DNA of 43,793 nt, from positions 1 through 43,793 of IMG/VR virus record IMGVR_UViG_3300017605_000657. The stretch is one strand, 5' to 3'. Shown piece after piece: positions 1-43,793 of the stretch. A model generated the notes under the pieces. The model was not told the DNA's origin, ran no database searches, and saw only the letters and a program-made list of their open reading frames with translations. A program made the position numbers and the translations under genes. The number at the start of each line of letters is the position of its first letter. Within the stretch, counting starts at the first letter, position 1. Source of the stretch: a virus.

Positions 1-70
1 CTGCGTCCGGTGTTCAACCCCTCGACCGTGCCCGGCGGCAAGCACGGCTGTCGGATCTATCGCACGCCGC
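1..70. repeat. 70-base direct terminal repeat (left copy of 43724-43793)
   Basis: Bases 1-70 are identical to 43724-43793. Both copies lie in the same reading frame of the terminase nuclease gene. The length suits an assembler overlap closing a circular or circularly permuted genome, rather than a biological terminal repeat, but the sequence alone cannot separate these. Confidence 0.95.
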
Positions 71-819
71 AGGACCGCATCCTCTACGAAGTCGGTGGCG
101 ACATCGCCGAGGGCGTGCGCGGTGGAGCGCGCAGCGCCATCGCCGTCTTGAACCGCATGACGCTCAACTTCGACTTCTTCTGGTACGGCTGGACGCCACC
201 CGAGCAGTTCCTGATCTACATGGACTGGATCGGTCGCTGGTACAACGACGCCGAGCTCGTGCCCGAATACAACAACCACGGCTACACCGTGGTCACCGGC
301 CTGGTCGAGCGCGGCTACCCGAACCTGTGGTATCGGCCGGAGAGCTGGGACAACCACGCGCCGCAGACAGGCGGCAAGCTGGGATTCCTCACCGGCGTCA
401 AGACCCGCGAGTACCTGGCCGACACCATCCGCGAGTACGTGCGCAACCGGGCCGTGCCCGAGCGCCGGCACCTCTCTGGCAACCTCGAGGATCCCGAATG
501 CGTGGGCGAGATGCTCACCTCGATCTACGAGAACGACCGCTTCGACAAGCTGCCGGGCTGCCTGAACGACGTGGTGCTCGCCGCGGCGCTGGCGCTGTTC
601 GGTCACCGCGGCCGGCCGGACGCCCCGCTCGCACCCCTGCCGTTCGAGGACTTGCGAACGCTCGCCGAACCGCTACGCTTGAAGCGCGCCTTCGGCGACA
701 AGGTGCCGCTGGCCGAGCTCATCGCGCATGGGCTCACGGCCAGCGACCTTGAGCGCATGGACGAGGAAGAGGCCCAGCAGAAGCGGTCCCGATCCAGGAC
801 GGGAGGGAGGCTGGCGTGA
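1..819 (+). CDS. terL: Terminase large subunit, nuclease domain only (C-terminal part of gene; start is at 43649)
   Basis: This is the RNase H-like nuclease half of a phage large terminase, which cuts concatemeric DNA at packaging. Joined through the terminal repeat to the start codon at 43649, the protein is 297 residues. The three expected metal-binding acids are visible: D59 in GGDIAEG, E114 in VPEYNNHG and D215 in GCLNDVV. Full large terminases are usually 450-600 residues with an N-terminal P-loop ATPase. Here only about 50 residues precede the nuclease core, and no Walker A motif occurs in them. The next gene starts inside the stop codon (GTGA overlap). The family call is by recognition of motif order. 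The missing ATPase is treated as a finding. Confidence 0.85.
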   Translation: MRPVFNPSTVPGGKHGCRIYRTPQDRILYEVGGDIAEGVRGGARSAIAVLNRMTLNFDFFWYGWTPPEQFLIYMDWIGRWYNDAELVPEYNNHGYTVVTGLVERGYPNLWYRPESWDNHAPQTGGKLGFLTGVKTREYLADTIREYVRNRAVPERRHLSGNLEDPECVGEMLTSIYENDRFDKLPGCLNDVVLAAALALFGHRGRPDAPLAPLPFEDLRTLAEPLRLKRAFGDKVPLAELIAHGLTASDLERMDEEEAQQKRSRSRTGGRLA

Positions 820-1097: not shown

Positions 1098-1384
1098 TCT
1101 ACTCGTTCCGCTGCGATGGCGGGCACACGTTCGACCTGGTGCGCCGCGTCGAGCACCGCAACCGGCGCGCGCGCTGCAAGTGCGGAAAGTGGGCAAAGCG
1201 CGACCGGCTCTCCGAGATCGCCACCGGACGCCACGGCGTGATTCCCGACATCGCCGAGCACTGGAACCTGTCCATAGACGCCCCCGTGCGCTCGCGCGCG
1301 CACCTGCGAGAGATCCAGAGACAGCGCGGGCTCTCCGACTACGACCCCAAGTCCCACGACGGTCCGCCGTCAGACTGGAAGTGA
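1094..1384 (+). CDS. FmdB-like zinc-ribbon protein
   Basis: A 96-residue protein. The first 30 residues resemble the FmdB/CxxC_CxxC regulatory-ribbon pattern: a YxFxC start, C7, H11 after GG, then CKCG at C28-C30. The second half reads SRAHLREIQRQRGL, a helix often found after such ribbons in phage head clusters. The start ATG overlaps the previous stop (ATGA) and the stop overlaps the portal GTG. The ligand set is incomplete compared with a four-cysteine ribbon, so metal binding is inferred. It could be a small structural or assembly factor of the head-packaging module. Confidence 0.75.
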   Translation: MIYSFRCDGGHTFDLVRRVEHRNRRARCKCGKWAKRDRLSEIATGRHGVIPDIAEHWNLSIDAPVRSRAHLREIQRQRGLSDYDPKSHDGPPSDWK

Positions 1385-3339
1385 CCGTGGCGTTCAGGCC
1401 CTTCACCCAGCAGGTTGACGCCGACCGCTTCTTCGTCGCCGAGGAACGCATCACGCCGGACATGCAGGACTGGCCGCTGCCCAAGAACATCGACAACGAC
1501 GACCAGCTCAAGAAGTTCGTGCAGGACCGCTACTCGCGCGCGTACCAGGGCATGGTTCCCGAGTTCTCGAAGATGCGGATGTGCGAGCGGCTCTACTCTG
1601 GAATGCACTACCTGAACCCGCAGGACAACTTCAACAACGAGATCACCAACTACGCCTTCTCGGTGGTGGAGACGGTGTGGCCCGAGCTGGTGACGGAGCG
1701 CCCGCGTCCGCTGATTCAGCCGCGATCGGGGATGCAGGCGTCCTACGAGAAGATCCGCAAGCACCAGCAGGTCGCACAGTGGTGCATGGACATCACCGGG
1801 TTTGACGACTGGCGACGGCGCTCGATGCGCTCGAAGCTCAAGTTTGGCACCAACGTCACCGTGCTCTTGCCGAACGTCGCCACCGGGCTCCCGTATCCGA
1901 AGCACTGGCCGCTGTGGAACTTCATGCCCGACCCCGGCGCCACCAACCCGTCGAACATGATGTACTACTTCCTCGCCGGCCCCGCGCCGCTGGGCATGGT
2001 GCGCGCCACGTTCGGCGACAAGGCGAACGGCCTCAAGGCCGACAACTACACCTCGCCCGGCTGGCGCGTGCTGATCCAGAACTACTTCGACTACTACACA
2101 TCGCGCGACATGGATGGCGGCGACAGCGGCATCCCGTGGCGCACGGGCTCGGTCGACATCGAGGGCAGCGGAGACACGCCAGCCACGAATCTCGGCGGAG
2201 ACACGTGGCTCGTGCCCATGAGCGGCGAGCGCCAGCCGGGCGCGGACTCCGTGTTCCTCGTGCAGATGTTCTTCCGCGACCTGACCAAGATGGCCGTCGC
2301 CTACCGCGGGCTGATGAACCACCGCCAGAGCGACGGCAGCTACATCCAGTATCCAGCGGTGATGCCGGGCGAGGACTACGTCTGCGACTCCGGCTGGCGC
2401 GTCGCCACCATCACGCCGGACGGCCGCGTGCTGCAGAAGGCTCCGCTCGATGCCGCGTGGGGCGGCGCCAACATCGTCGTCGGCTGGGACTACCAGCACG
2501 AGGACCGCTTCTTCGGCTACGGCGAAATCGAGCAGATCGCGCCCAAGGTTCGCGCCATCAACCGCGCCTACTACCTGATCGGCCAGGCCGAGGCTTACGA
2601 GAACCTTCCGATCGTGGTGAAGGACCAGCAGAGCGGCATCGACACGAACCGCAGCTCGTTCGGCCCCGGCGACACCGTCACCAAGCGGCAGGGCAGCGAG
2701 GTGAAGATCCTCGAGTTCCGCGGCATCTCGAACGCCAGCTTCAACCTGCTCAACGAGCGGAAGAAGGACTTGCAGGACGTGGTCGGTGTGACGCCGGCAC
2801 AGGAGGGGCAGCGCCCGCCCGGCATTGAGGCCGCGGCGGCGTACCGCGCCATCCTTCAGCAGGCGCTGAAGCGCACGCAGGGCAAGATCCCGCAGTACCT
2901 GGACGAGATGGCCACGATCGTCACCAAGCAGATGCTCTACATGGCGCGCAAGCTCGACGTGGCGCTGGGAATCATGGTGAACGGTGAGCCGCTCACGATT
3001 GAGCCCAAGGAGCTGGAGTACCAGTTCGACCTGCGCTTCGACACCTCGACCGCGACCATGAGCGGAAAGATGCTGAACGAGGACCGCATCCTCCAGTACC
3101 TGCAGCTGGGACTGGTCGACCAGATGTGGGCCATCGACCAGCTCGAGCTGCCGGGCGCGCGCGAGCTCAAGCAGCGCATCCTCCAGCAGCAGCAGCGGGA
3201 AGCCGAGCTGCAGCTGATCGAGGCGCTGGTCGGCGGCTCCCAGCAGGGCCAGAATGGTGGCAAGGGCGGAGGCTCCGCCTCGACCAGCAACAACGGTGAG
3301 CGCAGGGCCATGAGCCAGACGCGCACCCACGGGAGGTAG
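1381..3339 (+). CDS. Portal protein
   Basis: A 652-residue protein that would form the dodecameric portal at the capsid vertex through which DNA enters and leaves. It sits directly between the terminase-side genes and the scaffold and capsid genes, the usual portal position. The sequence shows an early NEITNYAFSVVETVWP segment, a central aromatic-rich wing and a late helical region around ALKRTQGKIPQYLDEMATI, as in podovirus-type portals. The tail is rich in Gln, Gly and Ser. I chose the GTG at 1381 because it overlaps the previous stop. Reading further upstream gives an Arg/Pro-rich extension in another gene's shadow. A GTG at 1387 is possible. Confidence 0.85.
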   Translation: MTVAFRPFTQQVDADRFFVAEERITPDMQDWPLPKNIDNDDQLKKFVQDRYSRAYQGMVPEFSKMRMCERLYSGMHYLNPQDNFNNEITNYAFSVVETVWPELVTERPRPLIQPRSGMQASYEKIRKHQQVAQWCMDITGFDDWRRRSMRSKLKFGTNVTVLLPNVATGLPYPKHWPLWNFMPDPGATNPSNMMYYFLAGPAPLGMVRATFGDKANGLKADNYTSPGWRVLIQNYFDYYTSRDMDGGDSGIPWRTGSVDIEGSGDTPATNLGGDTWLVPMSGERQPGADSVFLVQMFFRDLTKMAVAYRGLMNHRQSDGSYIQYPAVMPGEDYVCDSGWRVATITPDGRVLQKAPLDAAWGGANIVVGWDYQHEDRFFGYGEIEQIAPKVRAINRAYYLIGQAEAYENLPIVVKDQQSGIDTNRSSFGPGDTVTKRQGSEVKILEFRGISNASFNLLNERKKDLQDVVGVTPAQEGQRPPGIEAAAAYRAILQQALKRTQGKIPQYLDEMATIVTKQMLYMARKLDVALGIMVNGEPLTIEPKELEYQFDLRFDTSTATMSGKMLNEDRILQYLQLGLVDQMWAIDQLELPGARELKQRILQQQQREAELQLIEALVGGSQQGQNGGKGGGSASTSNNGERRAMSQTRTHGR

Positions 3340-4715: not shown

Positions 4716-5750
4716 ATGCCGTCGACAACCATCAATTGGGACAACGTGTCGACGCACGTGCAGGACTACATCATGCCTCGCGTGCGCAACAACGTGTTCA
4801 CAGCGAACGTGGCGTGGTATCGACTGAAGGACCGGGTCGAACACTACGCTGGCGGTCGCAAGATCGTGTATCCGCTGGCATTCGAGCCCGAGGGCGGCGG
4901 CGGCCAGTGGTGGAACAGCAACGACAAGATCGACACCAGGCACCGCGCACCGTTCACCGCGGCGGAGTACTACGCGGTCAACGGCGTGGTCCCGATCACC
5001 GTCCTGCTCGAGGAAGAGGACATGATCTCCGGGCCGCAGCAGGTGATGAGCCTGGTGGCGAACAAGATGAAGCTGGCGAACCGCACCGCGGTGTCGCTGC
5101 TCGGTGGCTCGCAGGGCCTCTACTCGGACGGCACGAACACCAAGGCCATCGCCGGGCTCGAGAAGGCGCTGCCGGATTCGCCGGGCACGCTCCACACCTA
5201 CGGCGGCATCCCCACCAGCTCGACGCAGAACACGTGGTGGCAGCCGCAGATGGACACGACCGCCTACACGACGGGCGTGGCGGGCAACTTCGTCCAGCAG
5301 GCCAATTGGGCTCCGCTCGACAAGGCGTGGGCGTCGATCGGCCTCAACAGCGACGGTGCGGCGCCGACGCTGGCGCTGCTCAACTGGGGTGCCTTCAACG
5401 ACATCTCGGCGGCGTGCACCAAGCTGGACAGCTCGTTCCGTCCGCAGCAGGACACCAACCTGCGCGCGGCCGGGTTCATCAACATCACGTACAAGAACGC
5501 GGCCATCGTGGTCGACCCGCAGGTGCCGCGCAACTCCGGCACGAAGGTGGAGAAGGCGTACTTCCTGAACGAGGACAGCTTCAACCTCGTCGTTCACGAG
5601 CGCCGCGACCTCGACTTCGTGCCGTGGCGTCAGCCGGTGGACCAGTTCCTCCGGGTGGCGTACATCCTGTGGCGCGGGCAGCTGTGCTTCTCGGAGCGCC
5701 GCTGCAACCTGAAGATGACGAACATCACCACCACGGCGACCTCGCCGTAG
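4716..5750 (+). CDS. Major capsid protein
   Basis: A 344-residue protein immediately after the scaffold and probably the HK97-fold shell subunit. The start ATG follows a TAGGAGT ribosome-binding sequence. The N-arm leads into YRLKDRVEHYAGGRKIVYPL, resembling the E-loop region. A central helix (MSLVANKMKLANRTAVSLLGG) fits the spine helix. The last third has alternating strands with VVDPQVPRNSGTKVEKAYFLN and ends near DQFLRVAYILWRGQL. The family call is by position and overall pattern; I do not see a signature unique to one capsid family. A hairpin follows the stop codon. Confidence 0.82.
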   Translation: MPSTTINWDNVSTHVQDYIMPRVRNNVFTANVAWYRLKDRVEHYAGGRKIVYPLAFEPEGGGGQWWNSNDKIDTRHRAPFTAAEYYAVNGVVPITVLLEEEDMISGPQQVMSLVANKMKLANRTAVSLLGGSQGLYSDGTNTKAIAGLEKALPDSPGTLHTYGGIPTSSTQNTWWQPQMDTTAYTTGVAGNFVQQANWAPLDKAWASIGLNSDGAAPTLALLNWGAFNDISAACTKLDSSFRPQQDTNLRAAGFINITYKNAAIVVDPQVPRNSGTKVEKAYFLNEDSFNLVVHERRDLDFVPWRQPVDQFLRVAYILWRGQLCFSERRCNLKMTNITTTATSP

Positions 5751-15240: not shown

Positions 15241-18200
15241 GTGGCGACCACCGACCAGTCGCCTATCTCGGCAACGATCGACTCCATGCGCGCGCGCGCG
15301 GCCGCCGCCGCGCCGCCCGTGCGCATCGCCAAGGGCGGCAAGCACCGCGTCGGTGACTTGCTGCAGGACGGCTGGGGCGCGCCGCTCATCGGGCGCGCCG
15401 GCATGTACACGCCCAAGGGCCAGAAGCTCCTGAGCCTCGAGCTGCCCGACGACCTGCCGGACAACGATCGCACCGCCATCCTTGGCTTCGTGGCGAAGAA
15501 CTTGGGTAGGTTCGTGACGCCGGAGGCCGCTGCGGGCATGGGCGGTGGACCCGAGGTGGCTGGACCTACCCAGCAGCAGGTGGCACAGGAGGCGTACAAC
15601 CGCTCGTCGCTGGGCGGCAAGATGCTGCTCCAGATGGCGGCCGGCATCGAGCGCGTGGCCCCGCAGCCGATCGCCGCGCCCACCGACCTGGTGCCGAAGC
15701 CGCAGAGCCTCGCCGAGCACGCCGCGGGGTTCGCCGGCACGGTGGGCACTTACGCGCTCGAGGTGGCGGCGCTCCGCAAGCTGCCGTTCCTCAAGCCAGT
15801 GGCGGGGAGCCCGCTCGCGTCCAGCGTGCGCGGCGGCGCGGCGGCAGCGATGGCCGCGGGCGCGAGCCGAGCGCCGGACCTGTCGAGCCGCCTCGTCTCC
15901 GCCGGCACCATGGGCGTCACGTCGGGGCTCTCGGAGTTCATCCCGCTCTCGATCTACAAGGCCGCCGTGACGCGCGCGGCCACCAAGGTGGCCCCGGCGT
16001 TCGCAGAGGCAGCCGGGGCGTCTCGGGCCGCGAGCATCGCCCAGGCGCTCAAGGCCGCGGCTGGCACCGTGCCCGGCATGACCGAGGCCGACCAGGCTCT
16101 CGCCGCCCGGCTCGCCGCGGTGACCGGCGAGCGCGCGGCCGGCGCCGCACGCGGCGCTGCCGTGGCCGGCGCCGCGGCGCTCACCGGGGCGCAGCGAGCT
16201 GCGGCTGTCGGCGGGGCCGTGGGATCCACGCTAATCTTCGGTCCGCTCTCGGCTTACATGGAGTACGGCGGGGAGAAGATCACGGGCCACGACGTGGAGC
16301 TGCCCACGCTCAAGGACGTGCTCACGCAGACCGGCATGGTCGCGGCCACGAGCCTGCTCCACCTGCCCATGCAGCTGCGCGGCGTGGGCGTCGAGCCCGA
16401 GCGCATCGAGCCGCTGGGGCCTGGTCCAGCTGGGCCGGAGCTCCTGCCTGGTGGCACTACGCCACCATCCCCCGTGGCGCCGTGGCCGGTGCCGCGCGCC
16501 GCCGCGCCCGCGGTCGACGCCATCCGGCAGAACGCGCTCGCCAAGCTGGGGAACGAGCCCAACCCGTTCGCTGGCGGCCTTACGCCCACGCAGGCTTTCA
16601 ACAAGAACTTCACCGACGCCGTGCAGGCTGTTGCGGCAGAGCGCGGTAAGCCGCCCGAGGCACTCACCCCGGACGAGTTTCGAATTGCGGCAGCGCGCGC
16701 CTCGAGCAAGGTTGGCGGCCTTGAGACGCTGAAGCAGGTGATGACGCTGCCGAAGCTCTCGCCGGCCGACCCGGACGCCGCGCGCAAGCTCAACAACCGC
16801 GTCGACGCCACCGCGCGAGCGAACAAGATCATGGCCGGGAAGCAGGCGACTATCTCGTTGCCGGTCAAGACTTCGCGTGGCGTGGTTCAAGTGCCGACTG
16901 ACGCCACGATCGTACACGTGGAGATGGCCCCGGACCTCCGGGAAGGCGCCCTCCGCGTGCTGGTCCAGGAGGGCCAGACCGGCAAGCTGGTGCCGTTGTC
17001 GTTCGACAACGTCGAGGCCATGGCGCGCGACATCCGTTTCCCAGCTCCGACGCCGGCCAGCGCCGAGCCCGTGGGTAGACTGACGACCAGCCGCATGGCC
17101 ACCGTGCCGCCGGGCACGCCGCCTCCGACCGCTGTTGGCGCCGAGCTGGCCCGCGGCGCGCTGACGCCCACGCCCAAGCCCATCGCCGGGCAACTGCCGC
17201 TCAAGGCAGGGAAGGGCGCAGCGCCCGCGGAGCCGGTGGATGTCTGGCGTGAGGCCCGCGGCACGATTAAGGAGCTGGCCGGGGACGAGGGCAGCGCCGC
17301 CACGGAGCTCTGGACAGAACTGCGCGCTGGCCGCCCGGTGCCGCCGCGCGCCGTGCCGCTGCTCGAGCGGCTGCGCTCCATGGGCATGAAGGTGAAGGAC
17401 TCCAAGGTCCGCGAGCTGGCGAAGCGCGTCCCGAACGCCAACGTGTTCAGGAAGTCGCTGCGCGGCAAGCTGATGAAGGGTCTTGAGGGCAGGATTCGGG
17501 AGCTGGGACGTTCGACGCCTGAGCAGGGGCCAACAGCGTCGCCCCCATCGCCGGCACCGACACCACCGGCTCCCGCTACGGGGCCGCCGCCCGAACCGCC
17601 GTCCGCGGGTCCGCCGGCCGTCACGCAACCGAAGCCGGCGCCGACTCCGCCGGCTCCAAAGTCGATCGCTCCTGAGCCGCTTAGGAGAGAGGAACCGAAG
17701 GGACCGAAGGTCGGAGAGCGCGTCGAGGTGGGAGAGCACCGCGGCGTGGTCATCGACCAGGCGGAGGGCAAAAAGACCGTCCTGCTGGACAGCGGGCGCA
17801 CGGTGCAGGCGGCCGACGTCGCCGTGAAGCCCGAGGCTCCGAAGGAGATCACGCACTACCCCAGCCAGTCGCGTGGCGGCGAGCCGCTGCGCATCTCCAC
17901 CATGGCCGGCTCGCACCTCGTGAACGCCGAGGCGAAGCAGCCAGCTGGTCCACTCAAGGAAGCCCTGCGCGCCGAGATCGGCCGCCGCGGCATCGTCCCG
18001 AAGGAGGCCCCCGTTGAGCCAGCCAAGCCCGCAGCCCCAGCAGCCGCCGCCCATCCCGCGCAACCCCGAGCAGCCCCCAGCGGTGGGACTGTCGAGCGAG
18101 GAGCTGGTGGCGAGCGCAACGCTCGCGCGCGCGTTCCCGTCAAGGGACAAGGCGGCGAGCGCATCGCCGTCGCCCGCGCCGAGTTCACGCACGACGTTGA

Positions 18201-21200
18201 CGAATCGGGAGTTCCTGCGGATCTGCGGGGATTCCTGACGCCGTACCAGCTCCAGGGCGCAGCCAAGGCGCTCGCTGCGATGAACGACCAGGCCCGCCGC
18301 GCGTTCCTGCTCGCGGACGGGACCGGCGTGGGCAAGACCCGGCAGGCGCTCGCGGTCGCGGAGGCGTTCCGCCGCGAGGGCCGCCTGGTCGTGGTGTTCA
18401 CGCCGAACGAAGTGGTTGGAAAGCCGTGGGAGGCCAAGTCGCTCAAGGCCCACGGCGGCAAGGCTGTCATCACCGGCTCCTACGCGCAGGACGCCGCGGC
18501 CATGGGCATCAGCGTGAACCTGTGGCGGCCCAAGGATGGGCCGATGCCTCTCTCGGGCATCGTGCTCACCACGTACACGTACATGACGGACCCCGCGATC
18601 ACCGAGAACCACAACGCGGTGTACGTGTTCGATGAATCGCACGCGCTCAAGAACGCGAGCGCGGGCACGGCGCTCGCGGTGAAGGGGCGCACGCTCGCCA
18701 ATGCGTCCTACGCCACGCTGTTCATGTCCGCCACTCCGGCCGACAAGCCGACCCACATCGAGTACCTGGCGCGCATCGGCATCCTCGAGGGCAAGACGCT
18801 GCGCGACGCGGTCTACGGGCTCGGGTTCCGGCTCGCAGAGAAGGGCGGCCGCACGTTTTGGGTGCCGCAGAAGAACATCAAGACCGAAGAGATCCTGAAG
18901 CGGATGTCCGCGCTGTTCGATCGCATGACCGACAAGGGCTCGATGGTGAAGCGCGAGATCGGGCTCGACGGCGTCGACATCCACTTCCGCCGCCTGGGGA
19001 TGCCGCGCGAGATGCACCAGACGCTGGCGAAGATCGCCGCCCACTTCGATGAATCGAACCCGCGGCAGCGGGCCATCATGCTCATGCACCAGCGCCGCCA
19101 GCAGGAGCCCGAGAAGGCGAAGGTGGCGCTGGAGATTGCGCGCAAGGAGATCGCCGCGGGCCGGCGCGTGATCCTGTTCGTGGCGCGCGTGAACGAGTCC
19201 GAAGTGAAGGTCCAGACCGGCAAGACCGCGACCGGCGAAAAGACCTACGAAACCATCACCTCGAGCGAGGGCACGGCGAAGCTGCTGCGCGCGATGCTGA
19301 CGAAGGAGGGCATCCCGTTCGCCGAGCTGCACGGCGCCGCGGATGTGCACGCCGCCGAGGCCATGGCGTCGTTCCAGACCGGCAACGCAAAGGTGCTCGT
19401 CGCCACCGTGGAGAGCGGCGGCACCGGCATCAACCTGGACGACACCGTGGGCGACGCGCCGCGCACGCTCATCATGGTCACCGCTCCGTTCAACGGCGTC
19501 ACGAACGTGCAGGCGGCCGGGCGCGTGTGGCGCATGACGACCAAGAGCCTGCCGCGCATCGTCTACCTGTTCGGCGATACGCCCGTGGACGACTGGAACG
19601 CCGCCATCATCGCCAAGAAGATGGAGACGCTGGGCGCGAACGTGAGCGGCCAGGTGAAGCGACTACTCATCGACCCCGACCTTCTCAACGAAACAGAGCC
19701 CGAGGACATCGGTTCGCTGATGTCAGGGGAGATCGGAGGGGAAATGCGCGAGCCACCCGCACCCGTCACCACGCCGCCGCCAGAGGAACCGCCGCCACAG
19801 CCGGCGAAGTTCACGCCGCCCAAGCCGACGCCGGCTCCGCCGACCACGACGGAGCTGGCCGAAGGCACGCACGAGGCGTTGCCCAGGGAGTGGACCAGCG
19901 ACAACCGCGACGACATCCGGTACACGGTGGGCCAGGTTCACTATGGGCGCGAGATCCTGAAGGAGCTGGAGGCCAAGCTCGCCAAGGGCACGGTGTCGAA
20001 GCGCAAGGGCGGCGAGCGCAAGCTGACCGGCAAGGAGCGCACCCAGCTGGAGGAAGATGTCCAGCGCAGGAGAGATGCGCTGGACATCGACATGGAGCGC
20101 GTGCGCGCGATCGTGGGCGACCAGACCGAAGAGGCCATCGCTCAGATGGAACGCGAGGCCGCGGAGATCGCCGCGCTGCCGGAGAGCAGCTACTCCAAAA
20201 AGACCGACGAGCCGATGCTCGACTACGAAGGCAAGCAGGAAGTCGATGACGCCGGCAATCCCCTGTACCACGAAGAGCTGGTCGACGTGCAGCCCACGGC
20301 CGAGAACGTCGACAAGTACCAGTGGTCGCGCTACGGCAAGGCCATGGTGAACGGCAAGGAGCACGACATCTCCGACGCCGTCGCCTACTTCAAGTTCGGG
20401 AAGTTCCCGTGGCAGATGTCGCAGGACGAGTACGACCGCTGGCTGTCGTGGGCCGAGGGTCCGTTCGAGGGCGCCGACCGCGTCTCGCTCGAGGACTCCG
20501 CGCACGTCTCGGGTTACGCGCAGGTCCAGGCCGGGTTGATGGACATTCCCATCAGCGACATGGCGAGCACCGAGTACAACCGCCGCCGCGCGGAGGTGTT
20601 CCACGCTGCGTTCAAGGGCGAGGAAATCCCGGAGGCCGTGAAGAACGACTTCCCGTTCGTGCGCCGGATGCTGCCGCCGGACAAGCACCTGTCCGACGCC
20701 GACGCCGACGCCTACATGGACATCGGGTCCAGCCGCAAAAAGGGCGAGACGGACGAGCAGCGCGCGGTGCGGGCCGAGGCCGCGCGCGCCAAGCTGCGCG
20801 CGAAGCACGGGCTGGAGATGTACGGCAAGGAGCACATCGACCACTACCAGCTCGAAAAGATGCGCGACCAGTGGTACGAGCGCCGCGTGGAGTACCAAGG
20901 CGAGCCCTACCGCGTCGGCTTCGTGCACACCGAGTACGACCCGGAGGCCGACCGCGCCTACTTCGCTGCCGACCTGCAGGACGAGTACGACTACGACAAC
21001 CGCGACAAGCGCGTGGACGACGTGCCCATCACCGAGCTGAAGAAGCTGCCCGAGCCGCCGGATTGGGAGACGCGCGACGATCGCATGGAGCGCATCCACA
21101 AGCAGGACGCGGAGCGACGGAGCAACCGCAGCGGCGAGAACATCGAGTTCGCAGACAACAAGTATGAGCAGGAGCGCGAGGCCGCCGGCACCACGCTCGA

Positions 21201-24200
21201 GGAAGAGCGCGCGGCCACGCTGTCGAGCGTGCGCGCGGGGCTGATCGCCAGCTACAACGAGGTGGTGGCGGCCCGCGAGATCATCAGGCGGGCGACCGCG
21301 ATGCTCGAAGGCGCGGATGGCAAGAAGAAGGCGAAGCTCCAGAAGGACATCAACGCCGCCAAGACAGCGATCATCCACGAGACGCGCTCGATCGGGGCAA
21401 CGATCGACGAGGCTCAGATGGCGTTCGGCAACGAGACGGCCGCGGAGCTGGAGAAGCTGGTCGCCGATCTGAACGAGCCGGCGCCTACGAAGCCTCCCGC
21501 CGGCACGAAGCTCGAGCAGACGACGATGGAGGGGATGCCGGCGCCGCAGATCCCCGGCGGCGCGAAGCCAACCGGCCCGGCTCCGCCGCTCGAGCTGGGC
21601 GGCGAGGCGCAGACGTTTGAGCAGGCGTTCGAGGCCCAGCTCCGTGCCGGCGAAGAGCCGGCGTTCGCGTCGCTGGAGGCCGCGCGCATCTCGGGCCAGA
21701 ACGAGCCCGAGGGCTTCGACGCCGAGAAGGCCGCGAGCATGATCCGCCGCCGGATGCTCGAGGAAGTCGGGCAGGGCGACCTGTTCGGAAATAGTCCGCT
21801 CCTGGGCGCAGAGGGACGGGTCGGCGTGGCTGGTGTGCCGCGCGGCGCGCTCCAGGACATCGAGGCCCGTCCCGACCTGATCGGCAACGGCAAGTCCGGA
21901 GTGTGGGACCAGAACGTACTCGCCAGCGACATCCGCACGCACACGACGTTCCAGAACCGCGACACGCTCGCCACGCTGGGCAACACCTCCGGCCCCGTGC
22001 CCGTCGAGTCGCTGGTGAACAACGAGAACATCAACGCGCTCTACAAGGCCGAGGGCGGCTTCAACCCCGACCTGATCCGCGCCAACCCGCCGCTGCTGTG
22101 GAAGGACACGCTGGGCGAGCTGGGCGAGAAGGACGCGCTGTGGCTGCTCTCGGGGCACCACCGCGTGGCGATGTGGAAGCAGAACCTGCCGGACGAGCCC
22201 ATGCCTGCCAAGGTCATGGGCGGGTCGCTGGCGAGCGCCCAGCGCGTGGCGCAGCTCTCCAACCGCCAGGGCGTGGCGAACACACACAGCGAGCTCGCGC
22301 GCCTCGCCTACACGGCGATGAAGAAGGGCGAGGACGACGCGCGCACCGCGGCCCAGCTCAAGGTGAGCGTCTCGGAGCTGGAGCGGCTTGTAAACTTCTA
22401 CCACGTCGACGCCGAGCTGCGGTCCGTCTATTTCCCGCCCGGCGCCGAGGTGTCGATCATGGAGCCGGTGTTCGGGAGCGCGCTGGGCGAGCAGGTGCGG
22501 AAGAACCCCGACGTGTTCACGAAGCAGATTCAGGACGACTTCCTGCGCCGGGTGCTGGGCTCGAGCGACATGCCGCCGTTGTCGCTGATGCAGTTCCGCG
22601 CCGCCATGACCGACTGGAAGAAGAAGATCGCGGACCGCCTGCCGCAGGAGCGCGCCGCCGAGCTGCTGGCCGGCGGGGGCGGCTACATCTCGCCGAGTGC
22701 GTGGCTCGCCGCCACGGAGCGGCTGACGTTCGACATCCAGGCGAGCGTCGCCGACGCGCGCGCCACCATGGTCGGCATCCTCAAGCAGTACGTGCCCGAG
22801 AGCTCGCTGCCCAAGAAGATGACGCAGGAGGCCATCGGCAGGGCGCTCCGCGACTACCGGCACAAGCTGCCCGAGCACGTGCGCGCCACGCTGTCCGACA
22901 TCTCCACGAAGCTGGGCCAGCTCAAGGAGGTCGAGGACGAGGTCGAGGCCCGCGGGCGCACGCTACTCCAGAAGATCATGGACGGCCTGGACATCGCCGA
23001 CGACCTGTCCGCGATCAAGAAGTTCATCGTGGAGAAGATCGGCACGCCGATGCGCGACGCCCTGAACGAAGGCGCGAAGGGCGGCCCCATGGGTGGCGGC
23101 TTCGGCGCGCTGGAGCCGACGATCAACTGGCTGCTCCGCCGCGCCGCCGAGCGCACGCACAAGGCGGCCGAGGCCGTGATGCGCCGGCTGGGCCGCAAGG
23201 CGCGCACGATCTACGTGAAGGACCACGGCACCGGCGCGACGCTCGCCAAGTACGAGCTGACGATGGACCCGACCACGGACCCGGCGAGCGAGATGGCGAT
23301 GTACCGCGCCGGAGCGGTGAGCGGGATCATGGGCAGCTACGTGTCCATGCCGCCCTACGCCCGCGGCGAGACGCTTCGGATGCAGGCCGCGCGCGACTAC
23401 CTGCCGGACTTTTGGGAGCAGCGGCTCTACGAGATCATGGGCGACAGCTTCATCCGCGACGTGCAGCAGTACTACCCCGGCGACGCCCATGCGTTCGACG
23501 CGCTGGAGAAGAAGGACACACCGCAGGCCAAGACCATGCTCGCCAAGTACGGCACCAACTACACCGAGCTGCGCAAGTTCCTCACGGAGATCCACGACTA
23601 CGTGAAGGAGGTGTCCGAGCAGGCAGGCATCCCCGCGCCCGGCTTCATCGAAAACTACGCCCCGCACGTGTTCGAGGGCGAGATGGCCAAGGGGGTCGAC
23701 CGGCTGGCTGAGTTCTTCTACGACCGCAAGATGGACGACGCCGAGAAGCGCCAGCTGGCTAAGCGATTTTTCGACCATCGTGAGGGCGACGAGAACTACC
23801 GCCGCTCGTTCTGGCTGGCGCTTCGTACCTACGCCCGGTTCGCCGGGCACTACGTGGCCAAGGTGCGATTCCTGTCCAAGATGAAAACCCTGCTCTCGAG
23901 CGAGTGGGCGAAGGGCGATCCCCAGCGCGCCGCCGAGGTGCGTCGCACGGTCGTGCGCTCCGTGTGGCAGCAGGAGGATTCCATCGGCAGGTTCATCAAC
24001 GACGCCACGCGCTCCGCGTTCTGGAGCAACGTGGCCGGCGGCGTGGATGCCATCACCGCAGACCAGGCCGCTGCGTACCTGGGCGAGACGAATCCCGGCG
24101 GGAAGTGGGCCGAGACGATCGCCCTCCGTCACCACCGCTTTGCTGGCGCTCGCTTTGCCTACGCGCTCAAGGGCGTGAAGCCCAACTTCACGGACCCCAG

Positions 24201-25959
24201 GCTGTGGGTGAAGCTCGGCGACACGAAGCACGGCAGCGTCTACGCCGGCACCGGAGGCCACGCCTTCGGCCCGGCCCATTCGGAGCTCACGCCGTGGATG
24301 CAGAAAATGCTCGACTTGGGGCTCGAGCTGAAGGTGAGGTCGAACCGGAAGTTCGCCCCCGAGGATGCTGTGGCGGCGATGCTGAGACAGCGGGACCGCT
24401 CGACGCGGCTCTCGCGTCAGCCAGGCAACTACTTGGTGAGCTGGCTCGGGCGGCGCATATCCACCGCCTTGGTCGGGCTCTCGGTGCAGACAACGCTCGT
24501 CAACTTCACCGGCCTGCTCACGCACGTCTACACGCGCTACGGCGCGCTGTCGATGCTCCGCGGCGGGCTGCGCTTCGGGGCGGGCTCGGCAGTAACCGCC
24601 GTGCGCGGGCTCGCGTCGTACCTCGAGCACCACAACCTCATCGACCCCAAGCTCGCTAGCGCCATCTACCGCTCGACGCCCTACATGCGCGAGCAGCTGC
24701 TGCTCGAGGCCGGCGGGCTGCGCCAGGGCTTCGCGCTGTCGCTGGAGAAGATGCTCGAGAAGATCGAGGCGGGCCAGCACAGCATCGACGTGCGCGTGGC
24801 CAAGCTCGCCACCAACTGGATGCAGGGGGCGGAGCTCGTCATCCGCGGCTGGTCGGTCATGGCCGCGGCGGACGCCGCGGAGAGCCGCGGGCACACGTGG
24901 GGCAACGTCAAGGCGTGGGTCGGGCGCAGCAACGTCGACCGCGACCGCGCCATCCAAGACTTGATGGGCCAGCTCTCGGATCCGAAGAGCGTGGTGAGCT
25001 ACGCCGCGGAGAACGAGTATTTCACCAACTTCTTCTACAACCAGCTTGGCCAGAACCCCGGCATGGGCATCCCATGGTTCAAGACCGTGCTCGGGCTCTT
25101 CTCGACGTTCCCCTGGTCGACGTTCGTGCACAAGGATCTGCGCGGGCTGCTGGGCGCGAGCCGCACCGTGTCCGCCGGCATCCGCTCGGCGCTCGGCCGC
25201 ACGCCCACGGAGAAGCCGATGCGCGGCTCGGTGCAGGGCGCCAACTACGACGTGCCTCGCATGGCACCTCGAGAACCCTACGGCGGGCGGGCGAAGGGTG
25301 ACCCGTTCGGCCCGTTCGCGGAGTTCTTCCGAAAAGGCGGCATGTCCTACTTCGACCGCCAGGCAGCGATCGAGTTCGCGCGCTCCATGTTTGTGTCGGG
25401 CGCGCTCGCCGCCGCGGGGGCGGTCTTGGGCATCAACGCGCTTATCGCCTACAGCCCGTTCGCGTTCATGCTCGTGCTCGCCATCCTCAAGATGTTCTAT
25501 CCCGACAACGAGCAGCTCGCCAAGGCGATCCAGAACGCGGAGGCAGGCCAGGCGTTCCGCGCCGGCCATGGCGGCATGGTGGCGGGATCCCCCGTCATCA
25601 ACGCGATTGAGGGCGCGCGCGCGGGCGACGATTGGGGACAGGTGCTGTGGAACGCGACGCTCGGTCGAGTCGGCGACCTGGTGCGCATGGCCGCGCTGGG
25701 CAAGTTCTACCGCTCCGGCAAGGGCATCCTCGAGCAGAACCCCGAGACGTTCGACACCGACCAGCTGCGGTGGCTCTACGACGCCTTCGGCGTGAAGAGC
25801 GCGCTCTACGACCTGACGCTCCAGCAGAAGGCCATGCGCACGCTGGGCATCTTGGACGAGGACACGATCAAGGAGCACCGGCGCCTCATCCGCCCGCGCG
25901 AGAGCCGCGGGGCCGGGCCGCCGCCGCCACCCATGCGGCCGGCGATGGCGCATCCTTGA
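15241..25959 (+). CDS. Giant polyvalent internal virion protein with SNF2/strawberry-notch-type helicase and ParB-like domain
   Basis: A 3572-residue protein, about a quarter of the genome. Visible order: Ala/Gly-rich, membrane-active-looking N-region (1-390); Pro-rich linkers; a small SH3/KOW-like barrel (about 821-870); a superfamily 2 helicase (about 981-1483); a charged coiled-coil region (about 1560-2110); a ParB-like domain with SGHHR at 2304-2308; a helical region; and a C-terminal hydrophobic part with membrane segments near 3061-3100 and 3383-3420. Helicase landmarks are GTGVGKT (1027-1033), DESH (1131-1134), SATP (1163-1166) and QAAGRVWR (1424-1431). The layout fits the polyvalent proteins of phages and plasmids, injected with DNA to protect or process it. 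P1 DarB is a known functional parallel. No methylase motif is seen. GTG start with weak ribosome-binding site. Confidence 0.85.
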   Translation: MATTDQSPISATIDSMRARAAAAAPPVRIAKGGKHRVGDLLQDGWGAPLIGRAGMYTPKGQKLLSLELPDDLPDNDRTAILGFVAKNLGRFVTPEAAAGMGGGPEVAGPTQQQVAQEAYNRSSLGGKMLLQMAAGIERVAPQPIAAPTDLVPKPQSLAEHAAGFAGTVGTYALEVAALRKLPFLKPVAGSPLASSVRGGAAAAMAAGASRAPDLSSRLVSAGTMGVTSGLSEFIPLSIYKAAVTRAATKVAPAFAEAAGASRAASIAQALKAAAGTVPGMTEADQALAARLAAVTGERAAGAARGAAVAGAAALTGAQRAAAVGGAVGSTLIFGPLSAYMEYGGEKITGHDVELPTLKDVLTQTGMVAATSLLHLPMQLRGVGVEPERIEPLGPGPAGPELLPGGTTPPSPVAPWPVPRAAAPAVDAIRQNALAKLGNEPNPFAGGLTPTQAFNKNFTDAVQAVAAERGKPPEALTPDEFRIAAARASSKVGGLETLKQVMTLPKLSPADPDAARKLNNRVDATARANKIMAGKQATISLPVKTSRGVVQVPTDATIVHVEMAPDLREGALRVLVQEGQTGKLVPLSFDNVEAMARDIRFPAPTPASAEPVGRLTTSRMATVPPGTPPPTAVGAELARGALTPTPKPIAGQLPLKAGKGAAPAEPVDVWREARGTIKELAGDEGSAATELWTELRAGRPVPPRAVPLLERLRSMGMKVKDSKVRELAKRVPNANVFRKSLRGKLMKGLEGRIRELGRSTPEQGPTASPPSPAPTPPAPATGPPPEPPSAGPPAVTQPKPAPTPPAPKSIAPEPLRREEPKGPKVGERVEVGEHRGVVIDQAEGKKTVLLDSGRTVQAADVAVKPEAPKEITHYPSQSRGGEPLRISTMAGSHLVNAEAKQPAGPLKEALRAEIGRRGIVPKEAPVEPAKPAAPAAAAHPAQPRAAPSGGTVERGAGGERNARARVPVKGQGGERIAVARAEFTHDVDESGVPADLRGFLTPYQLQGAAKALAAMNDQARRAFLLADGTGVGKTRQALAVAEAFRREGRLVVVFTPNEVVGKPWEAKSLKAHGGKAVITGSYAQDAAAMGISVNLWRPKDGPMPLSGIVLTTYTYMTDPAITENHNAVYVFDESHALKNASAGTALAVKGRTLANASYATLFMSATPADKPTHIEYLARIGILEGKTLRDAVYGLGFRLAEKGGRTFWVPQKNIKTEEILKRMSALFDRMTDKGSMVKREIGLDGVDIHFRRLGMPREMHQTLAKIAAHFDESNPRQRAIMLMHQRRQQEPEKAKVALEIARKEIAAGRRVILFVARVNESEVKVQTGKTATGEKTYETITSSEGTAKLLRAMLTKEGIPFAELHGAADVHAAEAMASFQTGNAKVLVATVESGGTGINLDDTVGDAPRTLIMVTAPFNGVTNVQAAGRVWRMTTKSLPRIVYLFGDTPVDDWNAAIIAKKMETLGANVSGQVKRLLIDPDLLNETEPEDIGSLMSGEIGGEMREPPAPVTTPPPEEPPPQPAKFTPPKPTPAPPTTTELAEGTHEALPREWTSDNRDDIRYTVGQVHYGREILKELEAKLAKGTVSKRKGGERKLTGKERTQLEEDVQRRRDALDIDMERVRAIVGDQTEEAIAQMEREAAEIAALPESSYSKKTDEPMLDYEGKQEVDDAGNPLYHEELVDVQPTAENVDKYQWSRYGKAMVNGKEHDISDAVAYFKFGKFPWQMSQDEYDRWLSWAEGPFEGADRVSLEDSAHVSGYAQVQAGLMDIPISDMASTEYNRRRAEVFHAAFKGEEIPEAVKNDFPFVRRMLPPDKHLSDADADAYMDIGSSRKKGETDEQRAVRAEAARAKLRAKHGLEMYGKEHIDHYQLEKMRDQWYERRVEYQGEPYRVGFVHTEYDPEADRAYFAADLQDEYDYDNRDKRVDDVPITELKKLPEPPDWETRDDRMERIHKQDAERRSNRSGENIEFADNKYEQEREAAGTTLEEERAATLSSVRAGLIASYNEVVAAREIIRRATAMLEGADGKKKAKLQKDINAAKTAIIHETRSIGATIDEAQMAFGNETAAELEKLVADLNEPAPTKPPAGTKLEQTTMEGMPAPQIPGGAKPTGPAPPLELGGEAQTFEQAFEAQLRAGEEPAFASLEAARISGQNEPEGFDAEKAASMIRRRMLEEVGQGDLFGNSPLLGAEGRVGVAGVPRGALQDIEARPDLIGNGKSGVWDQNVLASDIRTHTTFQNRDTLATLGNTSGPVPVESLVNNENINALYKAEGGFNPDLIRANPPLLWKDTLGELGEKDALWLLSGHHRVAMWKQNLPDEPMPAKVMGGSLASAQRVAQLSNRQGVANTHSELARLAYTAMKKGEDDARTAAQLKVSVSELERLVNFYHVDAELRSVYFPPGAEVSIMEPVFGSALGEQVRKNPDVFTKQIQDDFLRRVLGSSDMPPLSLMQFRAAMTDWKKKIADRLPQERAAELLAGGGGYISPSAWLAATERLTFDIQASVADARATMVGILKQYVPESSLPKKMTQEAIGRALRDYRHKLPEHVRATLSDISTKLGQLKEVEDEVEARGRTLLQKIMDGLDIADDLSAIKKFIVEKIGTPMRDALNEGAKGGPMGGGFGALEPTINWLLRRAAERTHKAAEAVMRRLGRKARTIYVKDHGTGATLAKYELTMDPTTDPASEMAMYRAGAVSGIMGSYVSMPPYARGETLRMQAARDYLPDFWEQRLYEIMGDSFIRDVQQYYPGDAHAFDALEKKDTPQAKTMLAKYGTNYTELRKFLTEIHDYVKEVSEQAGIPAPGFIENYAPHVFEGEMAKGVDRLAEFFYDRKMDDAEKRQLAKRFFDHREGDENYRRSFWLALRTYARFAGHYVAKVRFLSKMKTLLSSEWAKGDPQRAAEVRRTVVRSVWQQEDSIGRFINDATRSAFWSNVAGGVDAITADQAAAYLGETNPGGKWAETIALRHHRFAGARFAYALKGVKPNFTDPRLWVKLGDTKHGSVYAGTGGHAFGPAHSELTPWMQKMLDLGLELKVRSNRKFAPEDAVAAMLRQRDRSTRLSRQPGNYLVSWLGRRISTALVGLSVQTTLVNFTGLLTHVYTRYGALSMLRGGLRFGAGSAVTAVRGLASYLEHHNLIDPKLASAIYRSTPYMREQLLLEAGGLRQGFALSLEKMLEKIEAGQHSIDVRVAKLATNWMQGAELVIRGWSVMAAADAAESRGHTWGNVKAWVGRSNVDRDRAIQDLMGQLSDPKSVVSYAAENEYFTNFFYNQLGQNPGMGIPWFKTVLGLFSTFPWSTFVHKDLRGLLGASRTVSAGIRSALGRTPTEKPMRGSVQGANYDVPRMAPREPYGGRAKGDPFGPFAEFFRKGGMSYFDRQAAIEFARSMFVSGALAAAGAVLGINALIAYSPFAFMLVLAILKMFYPDNEQLAKAIQNAEAGQAFRAGHGGMVAGSPVINAIEGARAGDDWGQVLWNATLGRVGDLVRMAALGKFYRSGKGILEQNPETFDTDQLRWLYDAFGVKSALYDLTLQQKAMRTLGILDEDTIKEHRRLIRPRESRGAGPPPPPMRPAMAHP

Positions 25960-42436: not shown

Positions 42437-42665
42437 GGCCAGGTTCGTGACGTTCATCGGCGGTCCGCTCGATGGGCGCACGCAGCTGATGACGATGCCG
42501 TTTCCGCAGCGCGTGAGCATCGAGCCATCGGGCAACCAGGAGGGGCAGTTCTTCTACCTCCCGAACCAGCCGTGGCACGAATGGACTCTCCACCGCGAGC
42601 CCAAGCCGGCGAAGGTGGTCTACGAGCTCGAGGGATTGAACTGCTACCGCGCGGTCGAGTCGTGA
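42429..42665 (+). CDS. Small FxGGPxDG-motif protein (copy 1)
   Basis: A 78-residue protein beginning near FVTFIGGPLDGRTQLM. The same start motif (EFVGGPKDGE) opens the protein at 43416. I have seen this G-G-P-x-D-G opening in many small phage proteins of unknown function. The rest has a WHEWTLHREPKPAKVVYELEG strand region. GTG start; the stop overlaps the next start. Function unknown. Confidence 0.6.
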   Translation: MSEARFVTFIGGPLDGRTQLMTMPFPQRVSIEPSGNQEGQFFYLPNQPWHEWTLHREPKPAKVVYELEGLNCYRAVES

Positions 42666-43132: not shown

Positions 43133-43419
43133 CGCTACCCGTGGGAGAGCGCCCCACGGCCGCGCCGAACGCCGAGAAGTTCGCCGAGATGTTCGGCGTC
43201 ACGCTCAAGCAGCTCATGGCGTGGGAAGGGGATAAGGCGTTCATGCAGTCCGTGCTCGAGCACCAGGGCCACTGGATCGCTCAGCGACCGCGTATCATGG
43301 AGGCGCTGCTCGCTCGCGCCACCAACACGGAGGACAAGGAGCAGCTGCTCTACGCTTCCGCGTACATGATTGCGATCGGAGATCCCACCGGACAGCAGCT
43401 CGGGAAGCTGGCCGGGTGA
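43129..43419 (+). CDS. Putative terminase small subunit
   Basis: A 96-residue helical protein just upstream of the terminase nuclease. The N-terminal part has an HTH-like pattern, AEKFAEMFGVTLKQLMAWEGD, followed by KAFMQSVLEHQGHWI and a C-terminal helix. That resembles small terminase subunits and phBC6A51-type HTH proteins, which recognise packaging sites. TTG start overlapping the previous stop; a GTG at 43141 is possible. The call rests on the motif and position. Confidence 0.6.
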   Translation: MTLPVGERPTAAPNAEKFAEMFGVTLKQLMAWEGDKAFMQSVLEHQGHWIAQRPRIMEALLARATNTEDKEQLLYASAYMIAIGDPTGQQLGKLAG

Positions 43420-43652
43420 GCCTTTTCGACCGGCTGCTCAGGCGCCGAACACGGAGGATCCCCATGGAGTTCGTGGGAGGCCCCAAGGATGGGGAAGTCG
43501 AGCCGACGCAGTCGTGGTGGACGCCGGGCACGGTGGTGAGGTTTCGCACCGAGCCCGAGCCTGAATCGCCGGTGCTCCACCACTACCAGGTGCAGGAGAA
43601 GCCGTCAGGAGAGCGTTACTTCATGTACGTGGGCGCAGCGAGGGAGCCATGA
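43416..43652 (+). CDS. Small FxGGPxDG-motif protein (copy 2)
   Basis: A 78-residue protein with a basic N-terminus (LFDRLLRRRTRRI) then MEFVGGPKDGEVEPT, the motif shared with 42429-42665. The C-terminal half (HYQVQEKPSGERYFMYVGA) is a strand region. GTG start overlaps the terS stop and its stop overlaps the terL start, placing it between the two terminase genes. Confidence 0.6.
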   Translation: MSLFDRLLRRRTRRIPMEFVGGPKDGEVEPTQSWWTPGTVVRFRTEPEPESPVLHHYQVQEKPSGERYFMYVGAAREP

Positions 43653-43793
43653 TCGAGAAGCGAGACGACGGCACGCGCGTGGAGAAGAAGCCGCTGATGG
43701 ACCTGAGCTACGACCACGAGGGCCTGCGTCCGGTGTTCAACCCCTCGACCGTGCCCGGCGGCAAGCACGGCTGTCGGATCTATCGCACGCCGC
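43649..43793 (+). CDS. terL: Terminase nuclease gene, 5' part (continues at base 71)
   Basis: ATG at 43649 with GGGAG just upstream, overlapping the previous stop (ATGA). It encodes a polar N-terminus and then a segment ending VFNPSTVPGGKHGC, the region just before the nuclease core. From 43724 it repeats the left end of the window. Read through the join, the gene is 894 bases. No ATPase sequence precedes it within the gene. Confidence 0.8.
   Translation, partial: MIEKRDDGTRVEKKPLMDLSYDHEGLRPVFNPSTVPGGKHGCRIYRTP
43724..43793. repeat. 70-base direct terminal repeat (right copy of 1-70)
   Basis: Identical to bases 1-70 and in the same reading frame of terL. It supports a circular or circularly permuted genome map of 43,723 bases. 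Confidence 0.95.

Follow-up and report, generated by a model that had tools for sequence, protein, structure and literature searches.

A terminase nuclease gene across the ends of a viral contig and the packaging ATPase missing beside it

How does a phage with its own portal, capsid and terminase nuclease come to show no packaging ATPase? The question was raised by the ends of the IMG/VR record IMGVR_UViG_3300017605_000657, of which the whole 43,793-nucleotide stretch was analysed (called the window below). Bases 1-70 were identical to bases 43724-43793 (70 bp), and the contig closed as a circle measured 43,723 bp. Read across this end overlap, from 43649 to 43723 and then from 1 to 819, the terminase nuclease gene was free of stop codons and encoded 297 amino acids, the length reported in the initial annotation; the coordinates given there (43649-43793) covered the first 48 codons of the gene only. 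The features discussed here were as follows.

43649..43723, plus strand: terminase nuclease gene, 5' part (codons 1-25); the ATG overlaps the upstream stop, and this part has no TerL homology
1..819, plus strand: terminase nuclease gene, codons 26-297; RNase H-like nuclease with D59, E114 and D215, profile matches and a predicted gp17/G20c nuclease fold
43724..43793, plus strand: 70-bp copy of bases 1-70, inside the nuclease gene; an assembly overlap or a true repeat
43464..43652, plus strand: 62-aa gene without family match, occupying the position that the ATPase gene or domain has in relatives
43141..43419, plus strand: 92-aa all-helical protein without family match; low-confidence model
1381..3339, plus strand: portal protein (phrog_156, E 3e-12), downstream of the nuclease as in relatives
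4716..5750, plus strand: major capsid protein, Mx8-like (phrog_9953, E 1.5e-34; tblastn to Mx8/Mx9)
15241..25959, plus strand: giant protein of 3572 aa with a Strawberry-notch/SNF2-type helicase domain; not a terminase ATPase

The nuclease gene had the marks of a real gene, as had been claimed for it on account of a ribosome-binding site of its own and an overlapping start. Its ATG shared bases with the stop of the preceding 62-aa gene (ATGA) and followed closely on a GAGGGAG, and a 4-bp overlap of this kind was the commonest gene joint in the window genome (16/38). Furthermore, the first 25 codons showed native codon usage only in their own frame, with +1.0 bit/codon against about -1.1 and -1.2 in the other two. 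The rightward late-gene order ran across the junction into portal and capsid. Both the native-looking gene joints and this gene order speak against the ends having simply been misjoined. Upstream of the 62-aa gene, the position of the 92-aa protein suggests a candidate terminase small subunit; the fold lent this identity no support, since the model was too poor. In addition, the 62-aa protein and a second small protein (42447-42665) shared an FxGGPxDG start and flanked the terminase region; the two may be paralogues.

The encoded protein was compared with known large terminases. A related full-length terminase profile aligned its nuclease domain to residues 38-227 (E about 1e-46), and a five-sequence profile matched the nuclease domain with an E of 1e-28. 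The three catalytic acids, D59, E114 and D215, were invariant in a 36-sequence alignment, in agreement with the initial annotation. In PHROGs the 297-aa protein matched phrog_38407 and phrog_24361, and on its own it scored no Pfam family. The AlphaFold model was built for the residues that the linear window itself spells out (26-297) and had a mean pLDDT of 78, with values above 90 in the core (model residues 21-110). The best PDB matches of the model in Foldseek were the TerL nucleases of T4 gp17, RB49 gp17, G20c and P74-26, with 3cpe at the top, and the top 14 PDB matches (E <= 0.001) were all TerL chains, mostly nuclease domains. Accordingly, the model predicts a T4 gp17-type RNase H nuclease fold for the protein, with the same catalytic acids as T4 gp17 and Terminase_6. 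Unlike the window protein, gp17 carries an ATPase on the same chain. Likewise, the large terminases of Vibrio phage douglas 12A4 and related phages were 27-34% identical to the window nuclease but were full-length proteins of 560-578 aa with a deviant-Walker-A ATPase.

TerL homology began at residue 38, at the linker to the nuclease, which indicates that no ATPase domain is present on the same chain, and the reported lack of a P-loop domain on terL was thus confirmed. The protein is therefore not a complete large terminase, which has the ATPase on the same chain. It resembles the nuclease of a split terminase in being a separate gene with its own start (ATGA overlap, ribosome-binding site and coding frame). 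The partner ATPase gene that a split terminase has in the same genome was missing from the contig, which need not hold for the virus. One way to such a gene is an in-frame removal of the ATPase part from the normal fused TerL of a phage, so that the contig would be a deletion derivative (a defective genome, or an amplification or assembly chimera). The start of homology at residue 38 agrees with this, as do the contig ends, which lie within the short non-homologous stretch, and the surrounding genes, which keep the normal terminase-portal-capsid order. However, the 25 leading codons began at a native 4-bp overlap and had no TerL homology, and it would be a coincidence for an in-frame deletion to stop right in front of the nuclease domain. 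A deletion derivative is unlikely, though it comes before the other alternatives.

The packaging ATPase was searched for on the whole contig. The initial annotation had found a Walker A motif only in the helicase of the giant protein, and this site (residue 1031, DGTGVGKT) was indeed the sole P-loop-like GK[ST] in a called gene. Such a scan was nevertheless unsuitable as an ATPase test for this TerL family and was rejected: in the closest relatives that have this ATPase type (L001, L002, L003, L007 and L009) the Walker A is deviant, KARQxG[FI]ST or FRQAGITEL, and lacks GK[ST], which made the test unfair. A scan of the window for the deviant motif found it in no plausible gene, so that neither form of Walker A was present in any plausible gene of the window. 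Moreover, a six-frame hmmsearch of the window with all filters off, using ATPase profiles from 5 and from about 70 relatives, found nothing, and neither did searches of the record with PF03237, PF03354 and PF04466. No terminase family was matched in PHROGs or Pfam by 67 translated stretches, taken from alternative frames, from the genes that remained and from the giant protein, which was cut into pieces.

The controls showed what these searches could detect. The ATPase profiles recovered the ATPase of relatives, and the ATPase halves of relatives were identified in 7/7 cases by PHROGs, canonical Walker A types included, and in 4/7 by Pfam. The profile search of the window's proteins for a terminase ATPase, which had been proposed as a check, therefore detected none while recovering its controls, and the earlier observation of no packaging ATPase on the contig stands. 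By profile and motif, a terminase ATPase appears not to be detectable anywhere on the contig; the profile tests exclude the known terminase ATPase types, not an unknown type.

A strongly diverged ATPase might still be encoded on the contig, in a gene without family match or within the giant protein. Many genes were without a family match. Nothing was found when each protein of the window was set against the ATPase profile by single-sequence profile-profile comparison, but this method also failed on controls of other ATPase types and so misses distant ones. Against this, PHROGs recognised all the controls, of more than one type, and nothing in the window; Walker A was absent from the plausible genes in either form; no unassigned gene of suitable size adjoins the nuclease; and the P-loop domain of the giant protein is that of a DEAD/SNF2-type helicase. 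A hidden ATPase on the contig is thus improbable, more so than a deletion. The giant gene, with 3572 codons, took up about a quarter of the genome, and its helicase domain lay near residues 1000-1480. Its C-terminal 1072 aa had no tblastn match in the phage collection. ARAGORN reported a tRNA-Val at 16063-16156 on the minus strand, inside the giant gene on the opposite strand; it is probably a false positive, as Rfam finds none.

The gene was further compared with related terminase loci, in a set of 150 open frames with the nuclease, almost all of them on viral contigs. The ATPase was fused in 120 of them (including L209, whose Walker A was read by eye) and was a separate gene directly upstream in ten; the other 20 were cut by a contig end, and none was without ATPase. 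Consequently, all 130 related loci with enough upstream sequence carried the ATPase, and compared with them the window was the only locus with nothing beside the nuclease. In the tree, nine split loci formed one clade (L138, L141, L204-L206, L214, L215, L220 and L221), while L084, also split, fell within a fused clade; because of this, terminase splitting seems to have happened several times. The terminase was also split in a Planctomycetota MAG (L228), and, the window aside, the tally of split terminases was one nine-locus clade and two scattered cases. Judged from these sequences, split terminases are real and recurrent. The window nuclease sat on a long branch of unsure position, and its membership of the split clade was not supported; it had about 38 extra N-terminal residues relative to that clade and grouped elsewhere.

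Other designs were seen among the relatives. In L081, L015, L040 and L209 the same nuclease family was fused to another ATPase type with GK[ST] (canonical Walker A), which suggests domain exchange within terL. The TerL frames of L008 (1075-3588) and L011 (5829-8606) were 838 and 926 codons long and contained a large insert that separated the ATPase start from the nuclease; the L008 insert looked intein-like, beginning with CITGDT and ending with HN. In L028 (76-1263), near the contig start, a signal-peptide-like N-terminus took the place of the ATPase in front of the nuclease, possibly as a chimera.

As in the window, the nuclease of the split clade, L084, L228 and phage phiPDS1 is a gene of its own, with its own start and complete catalytic acids. 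The gene joints of split-terminase loci are also translational overlaps (the ATPase and nuclease genes overlapped as ATGA in L138 and L141, the two loci read at base level, and L084 had a short Lys-rich frame between them), and portal and Mx8-like capsid genes follow downstream, the capsid being shown for L138 and L141. The difference is that the split loci from IMG/VR and the MAG have the ATPase gene just upstream, whereas in the window it is absent. For phiPDS1, the authors considered that its split terminase might stem from a distinct codon table or from faulty assembly (PMC10773633). In Jug phages terL is split by group I introns (PMC12363816) and is likewise in pieces, but the window had no Rfam intron match and no second piece on the contig. 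No Rfam family matched in the window, and a group I intron splitting the nuclease gene was rejected on this lack of a match.

The most probable explanation, at about 45%, is a split terminase made of two polypeptides: the protein would be its nuclease subunit, and the ATPase, though encoded by the phage, would have its gene off the contig. The same nuclease family occurs separately in the ten viral loci above with the ATPase directly upstream. The short terL thus need not mean a loss of function, because the nuclease occurs naturally as a separate gene; the missing partner is the only odd thing. To our knowledge, no tailed phage packages without an ATPase, and we therefore infer that it is a separate phage gene outside the assembled sequence. 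The presence of an ATPase in every relative that could be read, and the recovery by PHROGs of the control ATPases but none from the window's proteins, support the same reading. Under it, a complete RNase H-type nuclease would be made from its own start codon and would join its ATPase, a polypeptide of its own, on the portal; the motor would drive the DNA in and the nuclease would cut the concatemer. The missing ATPase gene might, for example, lie on a segment flanked by a 70-bp repeat copy on either side, or a co-occurring variant might carry it. Since the gene order around the junction is that of a normal late operon, little sequence should be missing, and it should be missing at the junction itself, where an ATPase gene belongs.

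The position of the contig break also favours the split terminase with an ATPase outside the contig. The break sat inside the nuclease gene, 75 bp past its start, and a random break would be expected at such a place in about 0.2% of cases. Furthermore, 70 bp is not a usual assembler k-mer size; the end overlaps in five comparison contigs were 119, 127, 119, 94 and 127 bp. However, the overlap length was rejected as proof of misassembly, because the 94-bp overlap in another record shows that odd lengths occur. The native 4-bp joint, with the right frame and codon usage on both sides, and the late-gene order continuing over the junction also speak against a gap at this point. In addition, a gap there requires a second copy of the 70-bp stretch; an exact search found no other contig with it, and no evidence of a second copy or context was found beyond the end overlap itself.

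The same joint, with its coding continuity and exact end overlap, would fit a circle that is correct and complete, from which the ATPase was lost; a co-infecting phage or a prophage would provide it in trans, and the phage would keep its own nuclease, capsid and portal (a dependent, satellite-like packaging). The failure of profiles and motifs to find an ATPase fits too, and so does the lack of any recognised DNA polymerase, primase or integrase. A repressor was not recognised in the whole window either, and the recognised DNA-metabolism genes outside the giant protein were RecT, a 5'-3' exonuclease, an endonuclease VII-like match and RadC. A ParB-like PHROG match was also seen among the scanned stretches. 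However, this state did not occur among the 130 related loci whose upstream sequence was long enough. Known satellites lack a full head and portal set, unlike the window phage; packaging satellites of the PICI/P4 type use helper capsid genes, and the window has its own portal and major capsid protein. There was also no relative to show that the state is stable: single-sequence searches of IMG/VR found no near relatives of the window nuclease, capsid or C-terminal part of the giant protein, and the portal, tail protein and giant-protein end had no match in the phage collection. The portal was too poorly conserved to support an alignment search. Supply in trans is thus also unlikely, ranking between the deletion and the hidden ATPase. 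Rated lowest is the reading of a tailed phage that really lacks a gene for the packaging ATPase, has a capsid, portal and terminase nuclease of its own and borrows the motor of another replicon.

Overall, the initial annotation was right that only the nuclease half is present and that the ATPase is absent from the contig, but it missed the natural separate-gene nuclease with a neighbouring ATPase. Of the options it had offered (a hidden gene, supply in trans or a missing segment), all of which still stand formally, the hidden gene has become less probable.

The terminase ATPase counts as a hallmark that tailed phages cannot do without, and it serves to detect and classify them. The naturally separate nuclease shows that the two terminase halves can be uncoupled, and recurrently so. 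The separate nuclease of this phage is ordinary within a known minority design, and the missing partner is the unusual part. If it arose in assembly, contigs that look circular but whose terL comprises the nuclease alone need checking before they are called complete. If the nuclease-only genome is complete, it would mean that the packaging motor can be borrowed.
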